DNA of 25,844 bases from Basidiobolus heterosporus B8920 (taxonomy: Eukaryota; Basidiobolomycota; Basidiobolomycetes; Basidiobolales; Basidiobolaceae): the NCBI GenBank assembly GCA_000697455.1, contig JNET01032895.1, positions 1 through 25,844 of the forward strand, read 5' to 3'. Numbering within the stretch: the stretch's first letter is position 1; each line of letters opens with the position of its first letter. The notes under the pieces were generated by a model. That model was not told where the DNA came from. It ran no database searches and saw only the letters and a program-made list of their open reading frames with translations. Made by a program: the position numbers and the translations under genes. Shown here one piece after another: positions 1-25,613 of the stretch.

Positions 1-38
1 AGGTTAAGGTCCCCTAGTAGTATAGGCATAGCATATAA

Positions 39-111
39 GGACTAGTAGCTCAGTGGTTAGAGCACCTTGCTAGGGTTAAGGAGGTCCCAGGTTCAATTTC
101 TGGCCAGACCA
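39..111 (+). tRNA. tRNA-like sequence, anticodon AGG (Pro); probably a tRNA pseudogene or tRNA-derived repeat
   Basis: The 73 nt fold as a cloverleaf. The D arm is intact (GCTC pairs with GAGC). The anticodon stem CCTTG/TAAGG has five pairs including one G-T, and its loop CTAGGGT places AGG at positions 34-36. The T arm has five pairs including one G-T. The A box TAGCTCAGTGG is good, but the B box GGTTCAATTTC carries T where the final invariant CC begins. The acceptor stem GGACTAG/CCAGACC has two mismatches (3:70 and 6:67). This is more decay than expected of a working tRNA, so a pseudogene or SINE-like copy is likelier. It abuts and partly overlaps the reading frame of the copia fragment. 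It lies on the far side of the adapter junction at 618, so it may not belong to this locus. Confidence 0.45.
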
Positions 112-615
112 ATAATTCTCCCCTAATAATCTCAACAGAATAAACCAATCTTTTTGATTTGTGAAGTGTTGGGAAGCTCCAGAACCAATATACCACATCT
201 GAGAATCCTTGTTTGTGGTCATAGATAGTGCAGATATAAATAGTTGGTCACCAGTTGAAGCAGCATTTCCAGATTTAGCCTTCTTTCCTTCTTTTGCTAA
301 TCTTTTCCGGTAATCTTTACTTAAATATCTAGTCCTTTTACAGTGATCACAGTATGTGTTACTTTTCTTCTTATGGTGTTTTGTACCCTTATAGGAAAGT
401 CCTCCATTGCTCAAAAAGGCATTCTCACCTCCTTTTTTGCAGGCACCTGATTTCTGCAAATCTTCATCCAGCAATCTTCCATAAGCATAATTTAGGGTCA
501 AATCTTCAGTTCTGGACTCTAGGGCCATTACCAGGCTCTGAAACTTATCAGGCAGGCTATTCAGGAGTGTAACTATGATATCATCATCTGTGGTAGATAC
601 CCCAATTGATTCCAT
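76..615 (-). mobile_element. Decayed Ty1/copia-type retrotransposon fragment (Gag C-terminus plus start of protease)
   Basis: The 179-codon frame contains the copia Gag signature LLNSLPDKFQSLVMALE (about residues 17-33). A CCHC-knuckle region follows in which two Cys remain (C89, C92), but the His and last Cys positions are both Tyr (Y97, Y102). The aspartic-protease motif has context W-Y-I-x-S-G-A-S at 141-148, and the catalytic Asp position reads Gly (G144). The recognisable copia part ends near the WF at 157-158; the last residues are translated tRNA-like sequence. No LTR, integrase or reverse transcriptase is present. The upstream edge is two bases from a Tn5 mosaic end, so the cut is technical rather than biological. 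The missing residues argue that this copy is dead. The family call is secure; the genomic location is not. Confidence 0.8.
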
Positions 616-617
616 TT

Positions 618-636
618 AGATGTGTATAAGAGACAG
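618..636 (+). other. Tn5 mosaic-end (Nextera adapter) sequence left in the assembly
   Basis: AGATGTGTATAAGAGACAG is a perfect 19/19 match to the Tn5 transposase mosaic end used in tagmentation libraries. It sits exactly between the copia fragment and the following AT-rich DNA. No transposase, resistance gene or second inverted end is nearby, so this is an untrimmed library adapter or chimeric junction rather than a natural Tn5 insertion. Bases 1-617 and 637 onward should be treated as possibly unlinked. Confidence 0.93.
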
Positions 637-1875
637 CAGTAAAATAATCAGTAAAAGTACAACAACATCTTCTTGATACTCAAGGTCACTTCCAATATCA
701 CTATTTTCACTTTCAACAGAAGCTACTGGGGGAATTTATACTAATTGCTCACCAAGCTCAAGCAGGTAACAGGTATTTCTTACCTTTCTGTCTTTTTAAG
801 CATTACAACAGCTATATAGGGGCCTCTAGAAGCATGTGAAAGATATTTCAGACAAATATTGGATTTAATACAAGTTCAACATTTACTTGCTGTTTGTCTT
901 GCAAATTGACCTTTTATCAATGTTATTACATACTAGGTAAAGCTGTTTTACTAATTCAGTTAGTACTGTTAGTACCTAGATGTTGAACAAATATACTTCA
1001 AAATTTAGAAGCTTGGGTAAGGGTTGTCTGACATATGGGTCTTTTATTGCTAATTAATTGTTGTCTGTGGCCTGAAAGTTTTTTGTTGAGGTAAAGAATT
1101 GGAGCAAATCAACCATGGAGAGTGAACTTGGTAGTGATGTTGAATTACAAAAATCCAAAAAAACCCGATATTCGTTCTGACTGCATTTGGGTATTCTTGT
1201 AATACTACTGTGAACATGCATGCTACAAGCAAATATAGTGCTCTTCAAATTGCTATTCACATACGATTAGGAACTGTTTCTAGTATAATTCATGGGATAA
1301 TATTGATCACCTTTCATTGAGAAATTCACATGGCTCAATATAGATAATTCCTAAGTTTCTTCCATCCAATGAAGGATTTACTAGCAGTTCATATTCATGA
1401 AGAATATCATTCAGGTTAATTCAAAAATGTGTACCGCACTCAAGAAAGTCAACTTGATTATTGTGAAACCCAAGTATCAAGAGATTTCCTGAAAAAGATG
1501 AAAGCATGACCGATGTCCAATGAATTTCGCGGATGCGGAAAACGAATTCAATGGGAATATTTCGCAGATACTAGTTTAGGTACCTAATGGAGCGGTGTTG
1601 AGTGACTCGAAAAATCAACCTTGCGGGCAGTGCGTCGACTTGTACCAGTGGATATCCCCTCGTACACAATCACCATTCGTTGGATTGGTGGGGGTCAACT
1701 TCACCCCATCTCGAAGAAATCAATAAAGCTGCCTGGTTGGGTTTAACATCTGTATCTCTTTTATTCACTACCTTCCTTTGTATTTCTAGACCTACTTGAA
1801 GAGATTCCTTATTTCTATTATTGTTAAAGCTCTGGAAGCTGATTTTTTACATAAGACATCTCGATTTATTGAATT
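637..1875. other. AT-rich region with no recognisable gene
   Basis: Open frames here are at most about 68 codons. The longest two (1054-1260 minus, 1602-1799 plus) begin at GTG, not ATG, and show no family resemblance. I see no tRNA, clear repeat or splice-linked exon chain. The last part presumably contains the promoter of the gene starting at 1876. Confidence 0.5.
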
Positions 1876-3338
1876 ATGTTACAAAGGCCCAGGTTCAATT
1901 CCTATACCGATCATTCACATCCATTTCCAGTCATAGAGGAGCATGGTTTTATTAAACATGAGTACTCCAAGCAACACCGTAAATCGAGTGACTTCAAGAA
2001 TATCCCTTCCATCCCTTCCATCCCTTCCCCGGTAGATATAATCAAGAATGATGGGAACTTGACACTCGGCCGAAAATCTTCGAAAATTCGGAGGTTCTCC
2101 GCCATACTAAACAAAAAATTTCAACGTAATCGGCTGAGCCGGGAACAAATCTCTCCTCCAATTCTCATTACCTCTAGCTCACTCATACAAACCACTCCTA
2201 TCCAAAAGCCGGCCAAAGAGCTTGTTCATCTAGAGAGGTCAATGAGTACCCATCTATGTTACACACATTCCTCAAGTCAACCACATGGCACTGGTCAACT
2301 GTCAAGACAATCATCTAAGAGCAGTACTAATACACAACCAAGTGAAAGAAATCATTCTCGTCTGGAGTCTCAGAATTTCATGAGACATCGTGGGTTTCTT
2401 TCTGGTGGCTCCCTTTCATCGTTTACCTCTAGTGGATCTAGCGATAAACACTCCAGCATTGGGACTTACACTAAAGAAAAGTACCAGTCGTCTACTTACT
2501 GTGGTTCAGTCGTCAATGATTGGGAGGAGAAATGTTCTAGCGGTCAGTCAAATTATAATCAGGACAATGCTGAAGTCATTTCTTCAGCCATGACGAAATG
2601 GGAGGAAGCAGCACTAGCACAACGTGAGGCACCAAGTTCGCATGAGTATGCGATAATGCGGAATACTTCGCCCCCGTATCGTCACTCAGGTTCATGCTGC
2701 TTTTCCGAACCCATCAAATGGATCGATGTGAAATCCAACGAACGAGCCGTGTCAGATTATGGTTCTTCTTCTTACAACGACGCTACCCTACCTGGCAGAT
2801 ACTCTCGTCAGTCTTCATCCATCGACACCGTGAAGAGTAGACGTCGTGAAGCTGTCGTATATGCAAAAGAATCTGAAGATTACCAGCGGGTTTTTTCTCC
2901 TGGGTGCTTCGTATCGGCCTGTCCAGAAGAAGGTACTTTGACTAAAATTATGTTGTTTCACTTTCAATGTCTGATGTGTATATCATAGCTTCAATTCTTA
3001 AATATTTATCCACTCTCTCCACACTCAATTCATCGACTGCTGTGCACCCTCTAGACATTGATTTTGTGGAGAAGGACAACTTCTCGGCCATTGCTGAAGT
3101 GGAGGAGGAGGAGGATGAGGAGTTGTATGCAGATGAGGGAGAAGAATCGTGTCAACATTCCATCTTTGACCTTTACGACTATGAAAGCGATGAAGAAGCA
3201 GAAGTAGAAAGTAAATTGTTGCCTCGATCTAAGGCCGTTGAGGAGTCAATACAATGTGACCAAGAGTCCAATACAAGCAGTACCTCACTAACCGAATTAA
3301 TTGAAAAGTTGAATAGAATATCAACGACCATCAGTTAA
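1876..3338 (+). CDS. Uncharacterised Ser-rich protein with acidic C-terminus (two exons)
   Basis: Exons are 1876-2932 and 2989-3338, with a 56-nt intron (donor GGTACTTTG, acceptor ATCATAG; phase 1), giving about 467 aa. I do not recognise the family. The N-terminal half is rich in Ser, Thr, Gln and His. It carries a short PSI repeat (residues about 45-51, from a 9-bp DNA repeat) and a basic patch around RKSSKIRRF (about 66-74). Many R-x-x-S sites and a W-E-E doublet (about 216 and 237) follow. The second exon contains an acidic run (VEEEEDEELYADEGEE) and ends in a short amphipathic segment, LTELIEKLNRI. There is no signal peptide, transmembrane helix or catalytic motif. The composition suggests a disordered, possibly phosphorylated regulatory protein, which is inference. 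The open frame is long and the intron keeps it open, so coding is likely. Confidence 0.65.
2006..2032 (+). repeat. 9-bp tandem repeat inside the orphan gene
   Basis: Three copies of a CCTTCCATC-like unit encode Pro-Ser-Ile, Pro-Ser-Ile, Pro-Ser-Pro. The period is a multiple of three, so copy-number change would keep the frame. Confidence 0.7.
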
Positions 3339-3545
3339 ATGGAATCTGATAATTTAACTTTCCATTGATCTGATTCGATGAATTCCGGAAGTTTCAAGAT
3401 CATTTACCCCTTGCTTTACATAAATGGTGTCTTTGTGTATATTCCTTTGGTAAAGATCATCCGGGTATAACATTGAGCAATTGATTCCCTTGATACCCAT
3501 TTCCTCACCCACTACACAACCCGATAACAACATCCAGTTCTATAT

Positions 3546-3599
3546 CTCTACCTCTACCTCTACCTCTACCTCTACCCTTACCCCTACCTCTACTCCCAC
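3546..3599 (+). repeat. Hexanucleotide CTCTAC microsatellite, about nine units
   Basis: Five exact CTCTAC units are followed by degenerate units (CCTTAC, CCCTAC, CTCTAC, TCCCAC). The tract lies about 200 bp downstream of the stop at 3338. It is pyrimidine-only apart from one A per unit. It is too short and variable to be telomeric. Confidence 0.85.
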
Positions 3600-4294
3600 T
3601 TGTGCATCTATTTCTACGTCTTCTATCGATGCTAGCTTCCTGGGTGATGAATAGAGTTAGGAATGTGTCAAATGATCTATTGGATAAAAAAGGTTAACTC
3701 TCGTTTAATAGAAATTCCGATTGCTTATCTCTCATTATTCCTATTTGGTCCCATATTTATCTCTAGTGACTTCATGATTCTCAGATGAGCAGCCGCCAAT
3801 GATCTAAGATGACTAATTATGGGTGAAGTCATCGATACTTGCAATTCTCGGTGCCAAGTCATTAGACCAAGTCTTTACCAAGACCTAATCTAATCATTGT
3901 TGTACGTGGTACGTGATGTGCGATATGTGGCGATGCAACACAAACTTGAGAAGAGGCGGTATAAGACACACTGAGGCTCAATATGGCGAATGTGTGCAAT
4001 GTTTATCCGGTTTACTAAGACCAATTAGTAATCTACACCATCCAGTCTATGTCACACACCAGCATAGACGTTGCCATAGTCATTACCATAGCCGTACTCA
4101 TAAACATAGGCCTTACCGCGGTTGAGATTGCTACGAAGACCAAGGCTATCTTGTCATCTCTAGGCAGGTTTCTTTCGCAGAGAGTTCCACCAATTTGGAA
4201 GATGGATGACCATTGCGCTTGGACAGTTTTGTTTTGGTCGATAGCGATGGATAGAAAATTCGCGGGATCAAAGAATTTCCTGAATGAATTAACT
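3600..4294. other. Intergenic DNA with one doubtful small ORF (4049-4309, +)
   Basis: The only ATG-initiated frame of note encodes 86 aa. A hydrophobic stretch near its start (about residues 8-25, VAIVITIAVLINIGLTAV) could be one membrane helix. No homologous family is recognised and no intron connects it to a longer gene. It could be a small membrane protein or chance. The rest of the stretch shows nothing further. Confidence 0.3.
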
Positions 4295-6997: not shown

Positions 6998-8417
6998 ATG
7001 TTTTGGAAAACTTCCCTGATTCTCGGGTGCGCGGTAGTCGCATCTGTCGCCAAAGAATGCGTCCCTTATAACTCCCCTTATGACTTCCAAGTCGGATACC
7101 CACCAGTATGGAAAACGCCTGACCAAAGTTCGTTCAACACTCCAGAGTTCCAGAAGGTTTACCACTCCATCGATTGGAGTCAGGTTCCCAACATCAAGCC
7201 TAGGGTTATGAATGCTGCTGGTCAATGGACCCAACCATATCCATCCAGCGATCCTGACTGTTGGTGGACATACAGCGGTTGTACCACCCCTAAACATAAG
7301 AATCTCAAACCGGATGTCACTACATGCCCTGAGCCTGATACATGGGGCTTGACTTTCGACGGTGGACCTAACTGCACACAAAGCCAATTCTATGACTTCC
7401 TGAAGGCCAACAACCAAAGAGCCACCATGTTCTACATCGGCTCGAACGTTGCTGATTGGCCCATACAAGCTAAACGTGGTATCGAAGATGGTCACCACAT
7501 CTGTGTTCATACATGGTCTCATCCATACATGACCACGTTGACCAACGAAGGGGTTGTGGCCGAATTTTACTACACCATGAAGGCCATCAAAACCGTGCTT
7601 GGCGTTACTCCTACTTGTTGGCGTCCAGTAAGTATACCTCTAACTGGAATGATTTGTCATGTCCGAACTAACTTTTTCCCTCCACTTCTTTCTATTCTAG
7701 CCTTATGGTGATATCGATGATCGTATTCGCGCTATTGCCAAGGGGATGGGATTAACTAGTATTCTCTGGCATCTGGATACAGATGATTGGAATGTGGAAC
7801 CTGAAGGCCACGAACCTGCATCTGTTATCGACAAAAGGTTCCAGAGTTTCGTGGATATGGGACTGAACGGTACCTTCGCTCGCTCGGGCACCATTGTCTT
7901 GGAGCATGAATTGAACAACGGTACTATGTCTTTGGCTGAAGAGTGGTATCCCAAGATTACACAGGCTTTCAAGCATGTTGTTCCTGTTGCCACATGTATG
8001 AACATCACCACCCCATACGTCGAAAAAGAATACACCTATCCTGATTTTGCTCAATATATCAGCGGTGATCACGCTGGAGATGTCTTAAAAAATGCTACCC
8101 ACCAAGAATCCACTTCTTACTCTTCCACTTCAACCAGTACTGATTCCTCTGCCTCTACTTCAGCCAGCACTGATTCCTCTGCCTCTACTTCAGCCAGCAC
8201 TGATTCCTCTGCCTCTACTTCAGCCAGCGCTGGCTCCTCTGCCTCAACCAGCACCGATTCTGACGAGTCCAAATCTGCCACAAGTACTTCTGGTAGTAAA
8301 GATGCCTTAAAAACACACAAATCCAGCAGTTCTGGTGACAAACAGTTCGATGCTACTAGAAAGATTGCTAGTCTCACCCTAGTCGTACTCGGTTTAACTG
8401 GTGCTTTATTGGCCTAA
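6998..8417 (+). CDS. Chitin deacetylase (CE4/NodB), secreted, GPI-type, with an altered metal-binding motif
   Basis: Exons are 6998-7627 and 7701-8417, with a 73-nt intron (phase 0, CTAAC branch); 448 aa. A signal peptide covers residues 1-18 (cleavage near SVA/KE). The NodB domain spans about 110-290. Motif 1 reads T-F-D121-G122-G-P, where the family has a second Asp as metal ligand. The other motifs are intact: H171-T-W-S-H175, R209-P-P-Y-G-D214 (across the intron), D236-T-D-D-W and L-E-H279-E. A Ser/Thr/Ala-rich stalk with 10-residue repeats follows, then a C-terminal hydrophobic tail ending LTGALLA, as in GPI-anchored wall proteins. Family members convert chitin to chitosan at the cell surface. 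With G122, the zinc site loses one ligand, so activity may be weak or lost; that is inference. A 5-codon upstream ORF may temper translation. Confidence 0.9.
8139..8258 (+). repeat. 30-bp coding minisatellite in the deacetylase stalk
   Basis: Three near-identical 30-bp units (8139-8168, 8169-8198, 8199-8228) are followed by a degenerate fourth. Each encodes a TDSSASTSAS-type decapeptide. Period-30 repeats keep the frame and probably set stalk length between the anchor and the catalytic domain. Confidence 0.85.
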
Positions 8418-17771: not shown

Positions 17772-20700
17772 ATGTCATTTGAACCAACTGAAGCCAGTGG
17801 CTCCCCATTTTCACTTGCACAACCTGGTGATTCTTTCGAGTCAATCCTTGATTTAAGACCTACTGAACAAAAGCTTAAACGGAAGAGTACTTTCAACCAA
17901 AGTGTACACAGTCTAAGCGTTGAACCTATAGAACCGACGTTAAAAGTGACTCTTCCTCAGAATATTAATGAAGAGCAAGTGTATGAAATGTCGTTTCTGG
18001 CTTCTTGGTTAAATACGAACCTGGCAAACAAAGAGCATTTACTTGCCATATATAATAGAAGAAACCCTGAGGTGGAATGGAAATTGAACGCACGTACAGA
18101 AATAACAACTGCCAAGGTGAGACCTTTTAACAGCCAATATTTACTCACTTTGTGCATCCCACTCTTATAATTAATTAGGGGCTGAACTCTATTTGTCCTG
18201 TTAGGATATGCGTTCAGTATTTGTCGTCACAATGCCCTTTCGAGCTGACGAGGAGTCTACAGAGGACTCTTTTTACAAATTTTCCTTACAAACTAGCTTA
18301 AAGGAAAACTGCGAAGTAATCGGGTATGCGGAATGTCGTAAAGAACAGTTATTACTTTGTTGTGAACATGAAGTACCAGGTACTTTAACAATAGATTTGA
18401 GATATGTGATTTCCGAACAACTTTTAGCAGATAAAAAAGTCGGATCCATCTCTATATTCATGGAGAATGTAAGTACAGTCTTGGTATTGATTTTTAGTAT
18501 CACAGCGTGCTTAGCTTTTTTTGAAAGATTCCACGGTTACCCAGATCTGTTGGACTCCCACTCTTGAGAGTTTTTTCCTCCCCTATCCAGCAGACCTACC
18601 GACTTGTAAACAACCAGCAAATTCGCCTACGAGTCCATGAGTCGTTGTCTGAATCACCATTCATTTCTTCACTACCATGCAAACTATTGGGTCTCTTTAT
18701 TGTTGAAGAGCGAGATGTCATCCAAAAGCTGGAGTCTCTTGATCTTGCATATACAACTAATACAGACACCAACTACAAATTTATGGAGGATTTACAAACG
18801 ACACAGATCGATCGGCATAGAGATTTGCTTGAATATTACGCGGATATCTTTCATGAGCTGAACCACAAGCTGCAGACCAAAATCATGGAAGGTGAAGGGG
18901 ATTTTCGCAGAAGTCCGGAAAAAAAAGAGGAAGAGCTACAGTGGCTACCATTGAATTGTTGCATTCAACAAATGCAGGTCGAGGAAATTGAGCAGGCTAA
19001 ATGTAATAGAACCTCCGAATAACTCAAATGTTGGCCAGTGCATTAAATTTGTTCAATTTTCTAGTCTCTAGCTACTCTATCGTAACATTTGGTGCACCAT
19101 GTGCGCATTCAATTCTCTACCAAGAGAAATCCTCACTTTCTCCGAAGGATGTATATCAAACATCCTATTGTACAGAGTATCTGGATAATACTGTTGAGCA
19201 TCTGAGGTCTGATGTGGAGAATCTAACTCAGGCCCTAGAGAAATGCGTTCAAACTACACTAGAGGGGGTACACAATGGCTCGTTCGACACTATTGGTTTG
19301 AAGAAGCAGCTAAGTGAGCTAAGGTTTTTGGCAGATGGGCTACGTAAATACACTGTAGACTTCCTGGATACAACCATGTTTCAAGAAGGACGTGCCGAGA
19401 ACAACCCTACTGTCGCTGCGATATGCGAAGAGGTTGACCTCGTCAGCTATCAGTTGAACGAAGAGAGTTTGCCCAGTCTAATGGAATTGATTGACTCTTT
19501 CACCACAACACGAGCAAGTGCACACACAGCACAAATCTCGTTGGAGCAGTGTCTAGAACAGATTCGATCGGCTAATGCCAACGTCAAAGCGCGACTCTTT
19601 TGCCTTATAGATTGCTATCTACTCACTGTAGATAAAGAGCACACAGACAATGTGACCATGAGAAAAAGGGATGATATCGCTCTGTCGCAGGCTATCACTG
19701 CTGTTGCTACTGGATTTGTTTGTATGGTTGACGAGTGCTTAGAAACCTTGAATCCGTCGAAATCTGATAGACATCAGTTCCTTTGGTCGCTATTTTGGGA
19801 GAGACTCGAGCAAGTCGGGTTTGTGTGTCAATTCGAGAGTTTACTCAGCGCGTACGGCCATGAATACAACATGCTTGTTGATACATATAAGGCACTGCGT
19901 TCTATTGAGCACTCGGTAAAGATTAGCCTTCATGCAGTACCGGGGGATTTCCAAATCGATCAAGCACTAGATGTTTTCGGGCACCACGGGTCCATTGTGA
20001 TATCGGTAGGGATCCCAGACACTTATTTTGCAAAGGTAAACTCGTCTCTGCAGAACGGTGGCCGTATCTCTGTGGTCCCAATCATCTTCACTCAAGGAAT
20101 CAACGAACAACAAGCCTATGCCAACATGATGGGTGATTTGAAGTTCCAAGACAAAATCAATGCTGAGAGTTGTGAACAGTATTGTCTTTATTTAACCAGG
20201 TACAAATGTTGGTGGGAAATGCGCGCTATTCCTGGAAACTACGCTGATTATTGGAAACAAGCTGATCAAATGATGACCAGACTGAAAACCGAGGTTGACA
20301 ACGCAAATCAGTCATTTCTGCAGAAAGCCTGGAGAATCAAAGCCACAACATCCCCAATGATACTCCAGCTTGCATCTGAGATAACGTTACTAGTTGGTTC
20401 GTATCCCCAGCTGGATAGCACTGAACCGCAGCATGAGCCTGAATGCCATATTGCAGACTCGAGTGTTGTTGCGTCATTCGTACTACCACGCTGCTCCATG
20501 CGTTATACTATGTGCAAATCAGCCAAAGACCGTACCTCGATGTCGGTAACCTTAGAACAAGCCAAAATATTGAAAAACATCCATCAAATTTCTGACGAAT
20601 ATTATGGCAAAATTCTCAAAGCAATGCGTGAAGAATGTGGCGTTCGAATTGCAAATATTGAAAGAAATTTCAAACTGGGGTTATGGGAAACTAAGAACCA

Positions 20701-20902
20701 CGAAAATGGAGCGATCGAGGAACCTTCGTCAGAACTTACCAAACTCACACTTCAAGTTATCCCTAACCCGTTGTTGAATGATGAACATTCGGTTCCGAAA
20801 CGAGGAGAAAAAGGCAAGTACGCTTTCAATTTTTGGCAACTGTATTTCTTTCCCGAAGAATACCGGCCAGCCTCTCGAGTCATTGCGAATTTTCAAAGTT
20901 AG
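17772..20902 (+). CDS. INPP4: Inositol polyphosphate 4-phosphatase (INPP4 family; four exons)
   Basis: Exons are 17772-18116, 18205-18468, 18594-19002 and 19065-20902 (introns 88, 125 and 62 nt; the second acceptor is a CAG/CAG tandem, so exon 3 may start at 18591); about 951 aa. The active site is C823-K-S-A-K-D-R829-T, the CX5R motif peculiar to INPP4, followed by M-S-V-T-L-E-Q. The C-terminal K-Y-A-F-N-F-W-Q-L-Y-F-F-P-E-E-Y-R-P block and the YSIVTFGAPCAH segment are further INPP4 landmarks. The N-terminal 230 residues probably form the C2-like lipid-binding domain. INPP4 enzymes remove the 4-phosphate of PtdIns(3,4)P2, giving PtdIns3P on endosomes. Length matches animal INPP4 (about 920-980 aa). 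The frame change near 19022 is a 62-nt intron, not a break: AAA T joins TC TCT AGC in phase. Confidence 0.9.
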
Positions 20903-24512: not shown

Positions 24513-25613
24513 ATGTTTTTTAGATTCAATATTATGAACAAATTCTTCAACCGCGCCAGCCTCGCTCTAGTGACTAATCTGTTGAATCTTGTGTTATTTT
24601 CACTAGTCCTTGCCGCAGGTATTCTCAATATTGTGAAAGGGCCCAAAGATTTTGCTTACATAGGAGCGAACGTGTATCTGTGGTAAGAGATAGTGTTTCT
24701 CGAGGTTTTTAAGCTATACACCAACCGCTCGAGTATTTATAGTTTGCTCGCCATCCTACTTTTCGTCACCGAAATCGTTTGTTTCAAGAAGGTTGTGCAA
24801 CAATGCCAGTTCATATACACCCATCGAGGCCGTAGCTTTGTCTACCTTTAGTAAGAATTCTTATACTTCCTTCAACTGGGGTCTGATTTAACTGAATTCT
24901 TTAGCCTGGGCTTTTTCGTGTATGTTAAGGGCTCTGCATATCATCAATTTAGTGGAATTTATTGTATTACGATGGCATGTTTACTCTTAATGTTCTCTTT
25001 CCTTAAACAGTATCCAGGTCGCTGCGAATTAAAGATTAGCATAGCGTGGTTAAGAAATGGCTTGTCTGGGCGAGAACCGGAGCTGAAAGAGATAGGGTGT
25101 ATGGATAATGAGGTGGTAGGCCATTCGCCTCCAGTAATGCCCTCGCCTATAGTACCTCCTAGCCTTATTTATCATCCTACATATCAGCTACCTCATCAAT
25201 TACCCCATCAATTACCCCATCAATTACCCCATCAATTACCCCATCAATTACCCCATCAATTACCCCCTAGGTCGATTTCTAACCCTAATCTTCATGTGAC
25301 TACTCCTAGGTTGCCAAGGAATGAGGAGATTACTGCTCAACCAACCTCTCATATCTATAGATACCCGGGAATTCTACCAGCAAGGCATCCATGGAGCACA
25401 ATGAAATCAAATCCGTATTCTTTTTCATCTCCAAATTCTTGGTACTACAATGGGTCTCCTTACTTCTACCCAGCTATGTTACCTTCTCGCGTATCTCATC
25501 AGCATCAACTGTGCCCTTCATATACTGGTTTACCCAACGGGCCAAGAGACACATGTAAATACCCTTATGCCCACCCTTATGCCAGGTGTCGATCTCATTC
25601 CATGGTAGCATGA
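24513..25613 (+). CDS. Tvp15/COPI-associated-family-like tetraspan protein with Pro-rich LPHQ-repeat tail (three exons)
   Basis: Exons are 24513-24682, 24743-24850 and 24905-25613; introns are 60 and 54 nt; about 328 aa. Residues 1-135 have four hydrophobic segments (LLNLVLFSLVLAAGILNIV; ANVYLCLLAILLFVTEIVCF; FVYLYLGFFVYV; IYCITMACLLLMFSFL). A H-R-G-R-S-F-V-Y-L-Y-L-G motif lies before the third. This resembles the G-R-G-x-x-Y-x-x-L-G signature of the COPI-associated/Tvp15 family, whose members sit in Golgi vesicles. The tail (about 160-328) is Pro/His/Tyr-rich and presumably cytosolic. It contains QLPH repeats (about 187-213) and a PYFYPAMLPSR segment, unlike Tvp15, which is short. The second ATG (Met8) could also be the start. 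Family assignment is from the hydrophobic pattern and one motif, so moderate. Confidence 0.62.
25186..25267 (+). repeat. 12-bp coding minisatellite (QLPH)n
   Basis: A diverged first unit (CAGCTACCTCAT) is followed by five exact CAATTACCCCAT units (25198-25257) and a partial one. The DNA identity of the units indicates recent expansion. Copy-number change keeps the frame. Confidence 0.9.

Follow-up and report, generated by a model that had tools for sequence, protein, structure and literature searches.

The window analysed here, the whole stretch of 25,844 bp, is the entire contig C279 in an assembly whose 428 contigs total 8,137,145 bp. It carries at 618..636 of the plus strand the 19-bp sequence AGATGTGTATAAGAGACAG, an exact Tn5 mosaic end (ME) with 0 mismatches. 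The ME lies in the transferred-strand orientation, its GACAG 3' end adjoining base 637. It is the sole ME match in the window with up to 3 mismatches permitted, and shuffled versions of the window gave none (0/100), so that the exact 19-mer noticed in the first-pass annotation stands. As that annotation also had it, the ME separates a copia/tRNA-like fragment from the remainder. The left side opens with the 3' portion of an LTR-like repeat of 282 bp (1..137, plus strand; 30 match rows in the assembly, self included), which holds a tRNA-like sequence at 39-111. At 138 this repeat adjoins a fragment of a copia-type gag gene on the minus strand (138..617; PF14223, E 1.9e-8, ORF 76-615) that ends at the ME. 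To the right lies the start of a second dispersed repeat (637..719, plus strand), cut by the ME at 637, whose TATA-box-like and AATAAA stretches we read as LTR-like. Its first nine bases (637..645, plus strand) are the putative Tn5 target 9-mer, where the right-hand fragment would have been cut, assigned from the pooled signature of 32 distinct post-ME starts; this 9-mer alone is not diagnostic, and a lone join cannot be judged by its Tn5 signature.

The window holds 27 listed ORFs of at least 100 aa. The claim that no transposon genes lie around holds for the seven of these that were scanned against Pfam, none of which matched a transposase family. Two inverted MEs around transposon genes are thus not what we see: the ME is single in the window, with no transposase in the seven scanned ORFs. 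A phage search of positions 1-4000 gave no match. Two ORFs contain tandem repeats, of 30-bp units at 8127-8260 (ORF 7746-8417) and of 12-bp units at 25189-25266 (ORF 24918-25613). For a 624-residue ORF at 19028-20902, the best database matches (3 of 11) are to Basidiobolus meristosporus and B. ranarum at 63-68% identity, the remaining eight being far weaker; judged from this one ORF, the window most likely comes from a Basidiobolus-like fungus.

Results

Both flanking repeats are broken exactly at the ME. The left flank (118-617) has 43 match rows in the assembly, self included; the window itself aside, 14 of them are at least 80% identical over 370 bases or more. Past the equivalent of base 617, all 17 paralogues that reach the flank end, among the best 20 of the 43 rows, share a continuation beginning like CATCAACTAAAG, which is neither the ME nor the sequence from 637 onwards; one of them (L156) diverges from the others after about 35 bases. 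The mirror image is found on the right. The second repeat, from 637 to about 719, also has 43 match rows if its own is counted, and 41 of these fall within query bases 1-90. Again among the best 20 of 43 rows, all 16 paralogues aligned from its first base have a common upstream stretch ending in CTTTATTA, a contig end leaving just 34-97 upstream bases comparable in three of the 16. These counts exclude the window itself (L154 and L174), L182 (the same place as L163), copies of the left repeat that stop short of its final two bases, and copies of the right repeat whose alignment starts only at base 5-19 (8 rows, 6 places). Since both repeats break exactly at the ME, what we see is a join of two places and not an insertion into one, and linkage across this point is, as suspected from the start, unreliable. 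The accompanying suggestion that the first 617 bp could be foreign finds no support: the gag repeat and the tRNA-bearing repeat recur in the same assembly (the 43 and 30 match rows given above), and both flank repeat types occur together on other contigs, C194 (L179) for example, so that neither flank looks foreign.

The tRNA-bearing repeat deserves a word of its own. Three complete copies on other contigs (L165, L216, L217) are 282 bp each, start with TGTTGAAAG and end with TTTCAACA, giving TG...CA ends, and all three are flanked by perfect 5-bp duplications (GTCAC, GTAAC and TAGAA). The tRNA-like sequence is present in the window, where it is called Pro, and in all three copies, where it is called Ser. 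The repeat at 1..137, here in a Basidiobolus-like fungus, resembles the LTRs of Helenus elements, a kind of TRIM that bears a tRNA and has been described in fungi, from rusts and some Agaricomycetes (PMC10886601, whose main text does not contain the word Basidiobolus). The likeness to those TRIMs lies in a tRNA-like sequence within an LTR-like repeat, in the 5-bp duplications and in a fungus with many copia-gag matches; the difference is that the element is known here from the 282-bp repeat unit alone. On C230, two copies of the repeat (151-280 and 934-1070, both plus strand) lie 783 bp apart and are possibly both LTRs of one small element.

The window is not an isolated case. A search of the assembly for other copies of the 19-mer, the check proposed in the first-pass annotation, found 64 MEs on 27 of the 428 contigs (8.14 Mb), all of them exact although the search tolerated one mismatch. 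The ME pattern read backwards occurs nowhere in the same assembly, and about 1e-4 chance occurrences of the 19-mer would be expected from composition on both strands of 8.14 Mb. Searches with only the last 15 or only the first 15 bases led to the same 64 places and no others, and so revealed no ME that lacks up to 4 bases at one end or the other. We read the junctions from the window and 26 further stretches of the assembly. In none of the 64 is the ME preceded by the end of a sequencing arm, and in none does a repeat of 3-12 bp, including the 9-bp Tn5 duplication, span the ME; instead, genomic DNA adjoins the outer ME end in every one. In total the junctions contain 29 distinct sequences before the ME (X) and 32 after it (Y), forming 32 distinct pairs. 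Repeated ME units on seven contigs account for 43 of the 64 MEs, 19 contigs have one ME each, and C262 has two in opposite orientation, 865 bp apart.

The two sides of these junctions differ in a telling way. Scored with a weight matrix derived from the MEs of prokaryote contigs (133 among the matches listed), the first nine bases of the 32 distinct Y starts reach a z of 8.4 at offset 0, with other offsets ranging from -4.2 to 2.8, a spread that we put down to the symmetry of the motif. The last nine bases of the 29 distinct X ends give a z of -0.1, and none of 25 offsets exceeds 1.0. The bases preferred in the Y starts are G at position 1, T at 2 and 4, A/T at 5, A at 6 and 8, and C at 9 (G-T-N-T-W-A-N-A-C), which matches the GTNYWRNAC reported for two Illumina tagmentation kits (PMC8224930). 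No clear Tn5 site is found at the four pre-ME ends whose continuation is known, and an excess of A/T at the last pre-ME base (22/29, against 59% in a genome sample) is not significant by a rough estimate. Taken together, the joins pair one Tn5-cut end, on the GACAG side, with one end made otherwise.

Some of the joins appear to close on themselves. On six contigs, DNA of the contig enters X and is followed by one to eight complete X units between MEs, the unit measuring 437 bp on C123, 155 bp on C136, 361 bp on C189, 198 bp on C228, 152 bp on C307 and 483 bp on C313. Where several units are present within an array they are identical; on C123 and C313 the last full X is followed by other DNA. 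Our reading is that these six arrays are circular ME-X molecules of 152-483 bp, unrolled by the assembler. On C401 the unit consists of two fragments, of 124 bp between inner ME ends and 106 bp between outer ME ends, which we read as a two-fragment circle. The resulting tandem periods are 174 bp (C136), 380 bp (C189), 217 bp (C228), 171 bp (C307) and 268 bp (C401), with one ME per unit, or two in C401. In the array at C136:9668-11214 the last unit, through which the array exits, is a 96.8% variant (3.2% different), as if from a second allele or paralogue.

Other joins lead elsewhere. The C189, C228 and C307 arrays exit into sequences that have no copy in the contig DNA leading up to the join (5.0, 12.4 and 15.4 kb, respectively). 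Nor does the left flank of the window recur in the 25.2 kb to the right of its ME, so that none of these four joins is a plain mate pair of usual size from one molecule. For every non-array junction except that of the window (20 of 21), the assembly was searched with tips of 70 bp. The X tip has a second exact copy for C56, C294 and C412, and the Y tip for C294 and C353; the C384 tips had diverged matches only (82-92% and 86%). At C56, C294 and C353 the local duplicates are 85-93% identical, with identical runs of at least 74 bp, while the C412 duplicate was compared across 100 identical bases only, and given these local duplicates the geometry at C56, C294, C353 and C412 is ambiguous. C353 is compatible with a circle of 419 bp. 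On C294, taking the first copies on the contig, X lies 1.8 kb upstream of Y; a 1.6-kb circle fits, but the join can also be read as a 1.8-kb deletion.

As a control for ordinary adapter residue, we scanned prokaryote genomes for exact MEs, which gave at least 119 loci with at least 133 MEs. Among the 133 listed, a current Nextera arm is present in full on 82 and truncated on 21, while 20 are preceded by nothing. Another 4 end in TCAG, which we take to be the older Nextera arm, and 6 have something else. Five of these six, among the matches listed, sit beside N runs; one ME of the 133 (L080) adjoins genomic DNA with neither arm nor N run, like the joins described here. Seven actinomycete scaffolds from public genomes (L018, L050, L071, L087, L103, L116 and L127) have internal MEs beside N runs, apparently older adapter residue.

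Discussion

The ME at 618-636 is almost certainly a residue of library preparation. A library chimera at a residual ME, as first proposed, is borne out by three observations that converge: the repeats on both sides of the window join break at the ME, the 64 MEs are exact and arm-less, and the joins have Tn5 polarity. To account for them, we consider it very probable that DNA was tagmented with the ME alone and ligated to ends not made by Tn5, and that the reads were left untrimmed and walked through by the assembler. Tn5 carrying arm-less (ME-only) oligos would cut the fungal DNA, each fragment gaining a 5' ME. The outer end of the ME, still free, would then be ligated to a DNA end of non-Tn5 origin. 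Where this was the far end of its own fragment a circle would form; otherwise the partner would be another molecule. Reads spanning such joins would escape trimming, and the assembler would pass through them, unrolling short circles as tandem copies and joining unrelated contigs. The outer ME end, intact in 64 of 64 cases, is what ligation to the end of an oligo predicts.

Which protocol could do this? Within this tagmentation-and-ligation scheme a mate-pair protocol is probable, most likely a Nextera-type library whose single-ME junctions would have been left untrimmed. Protocols of this kind combine tagmentation with a biotinylated junction adapter, strand displacement, self-ligation and shearing (PMC4676930, PMC6298255). 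The circularised ME-fragment molecules make the mate-pair reading the best fit. In one published mate-pair set the inserts measure 2-12 kb (PMC6298255), and the circles here, at 152-483 bp, are far shorter. Counting further against a plain mate-pair library, the pre-ME ends show no sign of cutting by Tn5, which would be expected at both ends of a mate-pair fragment. The main product of mate-pair kits is a 38-bp double-ME junction, and its absence from the assembly, at up to 3 mismatches, also speaks against this protocol, although trimming could explain it. With pre-ME ends free of Tn5 cuts and the 38-mer absent, at most a single-ME variant of the mate-pair junction comes into question.

The nearest known counterpart of these arm-less single-ME joins is the "Nextera mate-pair single junction adapter", a name that goes back to an Illumina technical note. 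The likeness is considerable: an arm-less 19-bp ME between genomic stretches, a Tn5-cut GACAG side and circularised molecules. The joins here differ in having no 38-bp junction and unusually short circles, and several of them do not link parts of the same molecule within 5-15 kb. The first-pass idea of an untrimmed mate-pair junction is thus favoured by the circularised molecules and weakened by the missing 38-bp junction and by the several joins that are not same-molecule. Illumina-only and PacBio Basidiobolus genomes are named in PMC7466969, in whose main text neither "mate pair" nor "library" occurs; the Nextera mate-pair library in PMC5954228 is that of Smittium simulii; and a literature search for the ME 19-mer together with "junction adapter" found nothing. 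We infer the kit and the ligation step, as we do the standing of the window join as a real molecule or as an assembly hop.

The latter choice bears on a refinement that we hold with slightly less than even confidence, namely that only the self-circles and local joins are true junctions and that the window join is a hop made by the assembler through short k-mers of the ME plus one or two bases. Three arrays in which the same X end is followed now by its own start, now by unrelated sequence, speak for such hops, as does the C136 exit, which passes through the 96.8% unit variant; against this, true intermolecular ligation yields identical contigs.

Could the joins instead have arisen during amplification? 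Multiple displacement amplification of low-input or single-cell DNA joins distant DNA by strand switching, which could have carried the ME along, and rolling-circle copying of small circles would give real tandem arrays like those seen here. The outer ME end, intact throughout and in no case shortened by up to 4 bases, resembles ligation to an oligo end instead, and whole-genome amplification usually precedes tagmentation. We consider this origin improbable.

Very improbable is ordinary Nextera read-through or terminal adapter residue. Such residue is common elsewhere, 121 of the 133 MEs from the 119 prokaryote loci lying within 150 bp of a locus end (among the matches listed), and it shares with our joins the same 19-mer and the same Tn5 target signature. 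However, 119 of these 121 terminal MEs have arms or nothing outside the ME, the other 2 ending in TCAG. Residual adapters in draft assemblies thus lie mostly near locus ends and have arms in 103 of the 133 listed, whereas here all 64 are arm-less with genomic DNA on both sides. Finally, a natural Tn5/IS50-like or other ME-bearing mobile element is practically excluded, since 64 copies in one genome look like a repeat family only superficially (variants would be expected, yet no one-mismatch copy exists, nor any target duplication of 3-12 bp) and the window flanks are two different repeats, both broken at the ME, which refutes it there together with the clean 19-bp insertion between neighbouring bases that the absent duplication had suggested.

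Returning to tagmentation and ligation, joins in which a single ME links a Tn5-cut end to a non-Tn5 one may, tentatively and on a limited check of the literature, form a distinct and little-noticed class of artefact that makes internal chimeras, a proposal that we ourselves think rather unlikely to hold. If true, the class would follow a simple rule: an exact arm-less 19-mer, a Tn5 motif on the GACAG side only, no duplication, and small circles appearing as tandem arrays. It would then affect 27 of the 428 contigs of one fungal assembly.

For the biology of the fungus, the ME at 618-636 is an artefact without significance of its own, and its value is that of a warning on this assembly. Gene order across 617/637 is to be discarded, and for users of the assembly the 64 ME joins on 27 contigs are all suspect. 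Likewise, tandem arrays that contain MEs, their periods ranging from 171 to 502 bp, are not to be taken as real repeats or satellites. The one-sided Tn5 signature offers a simple means of finding such joins.
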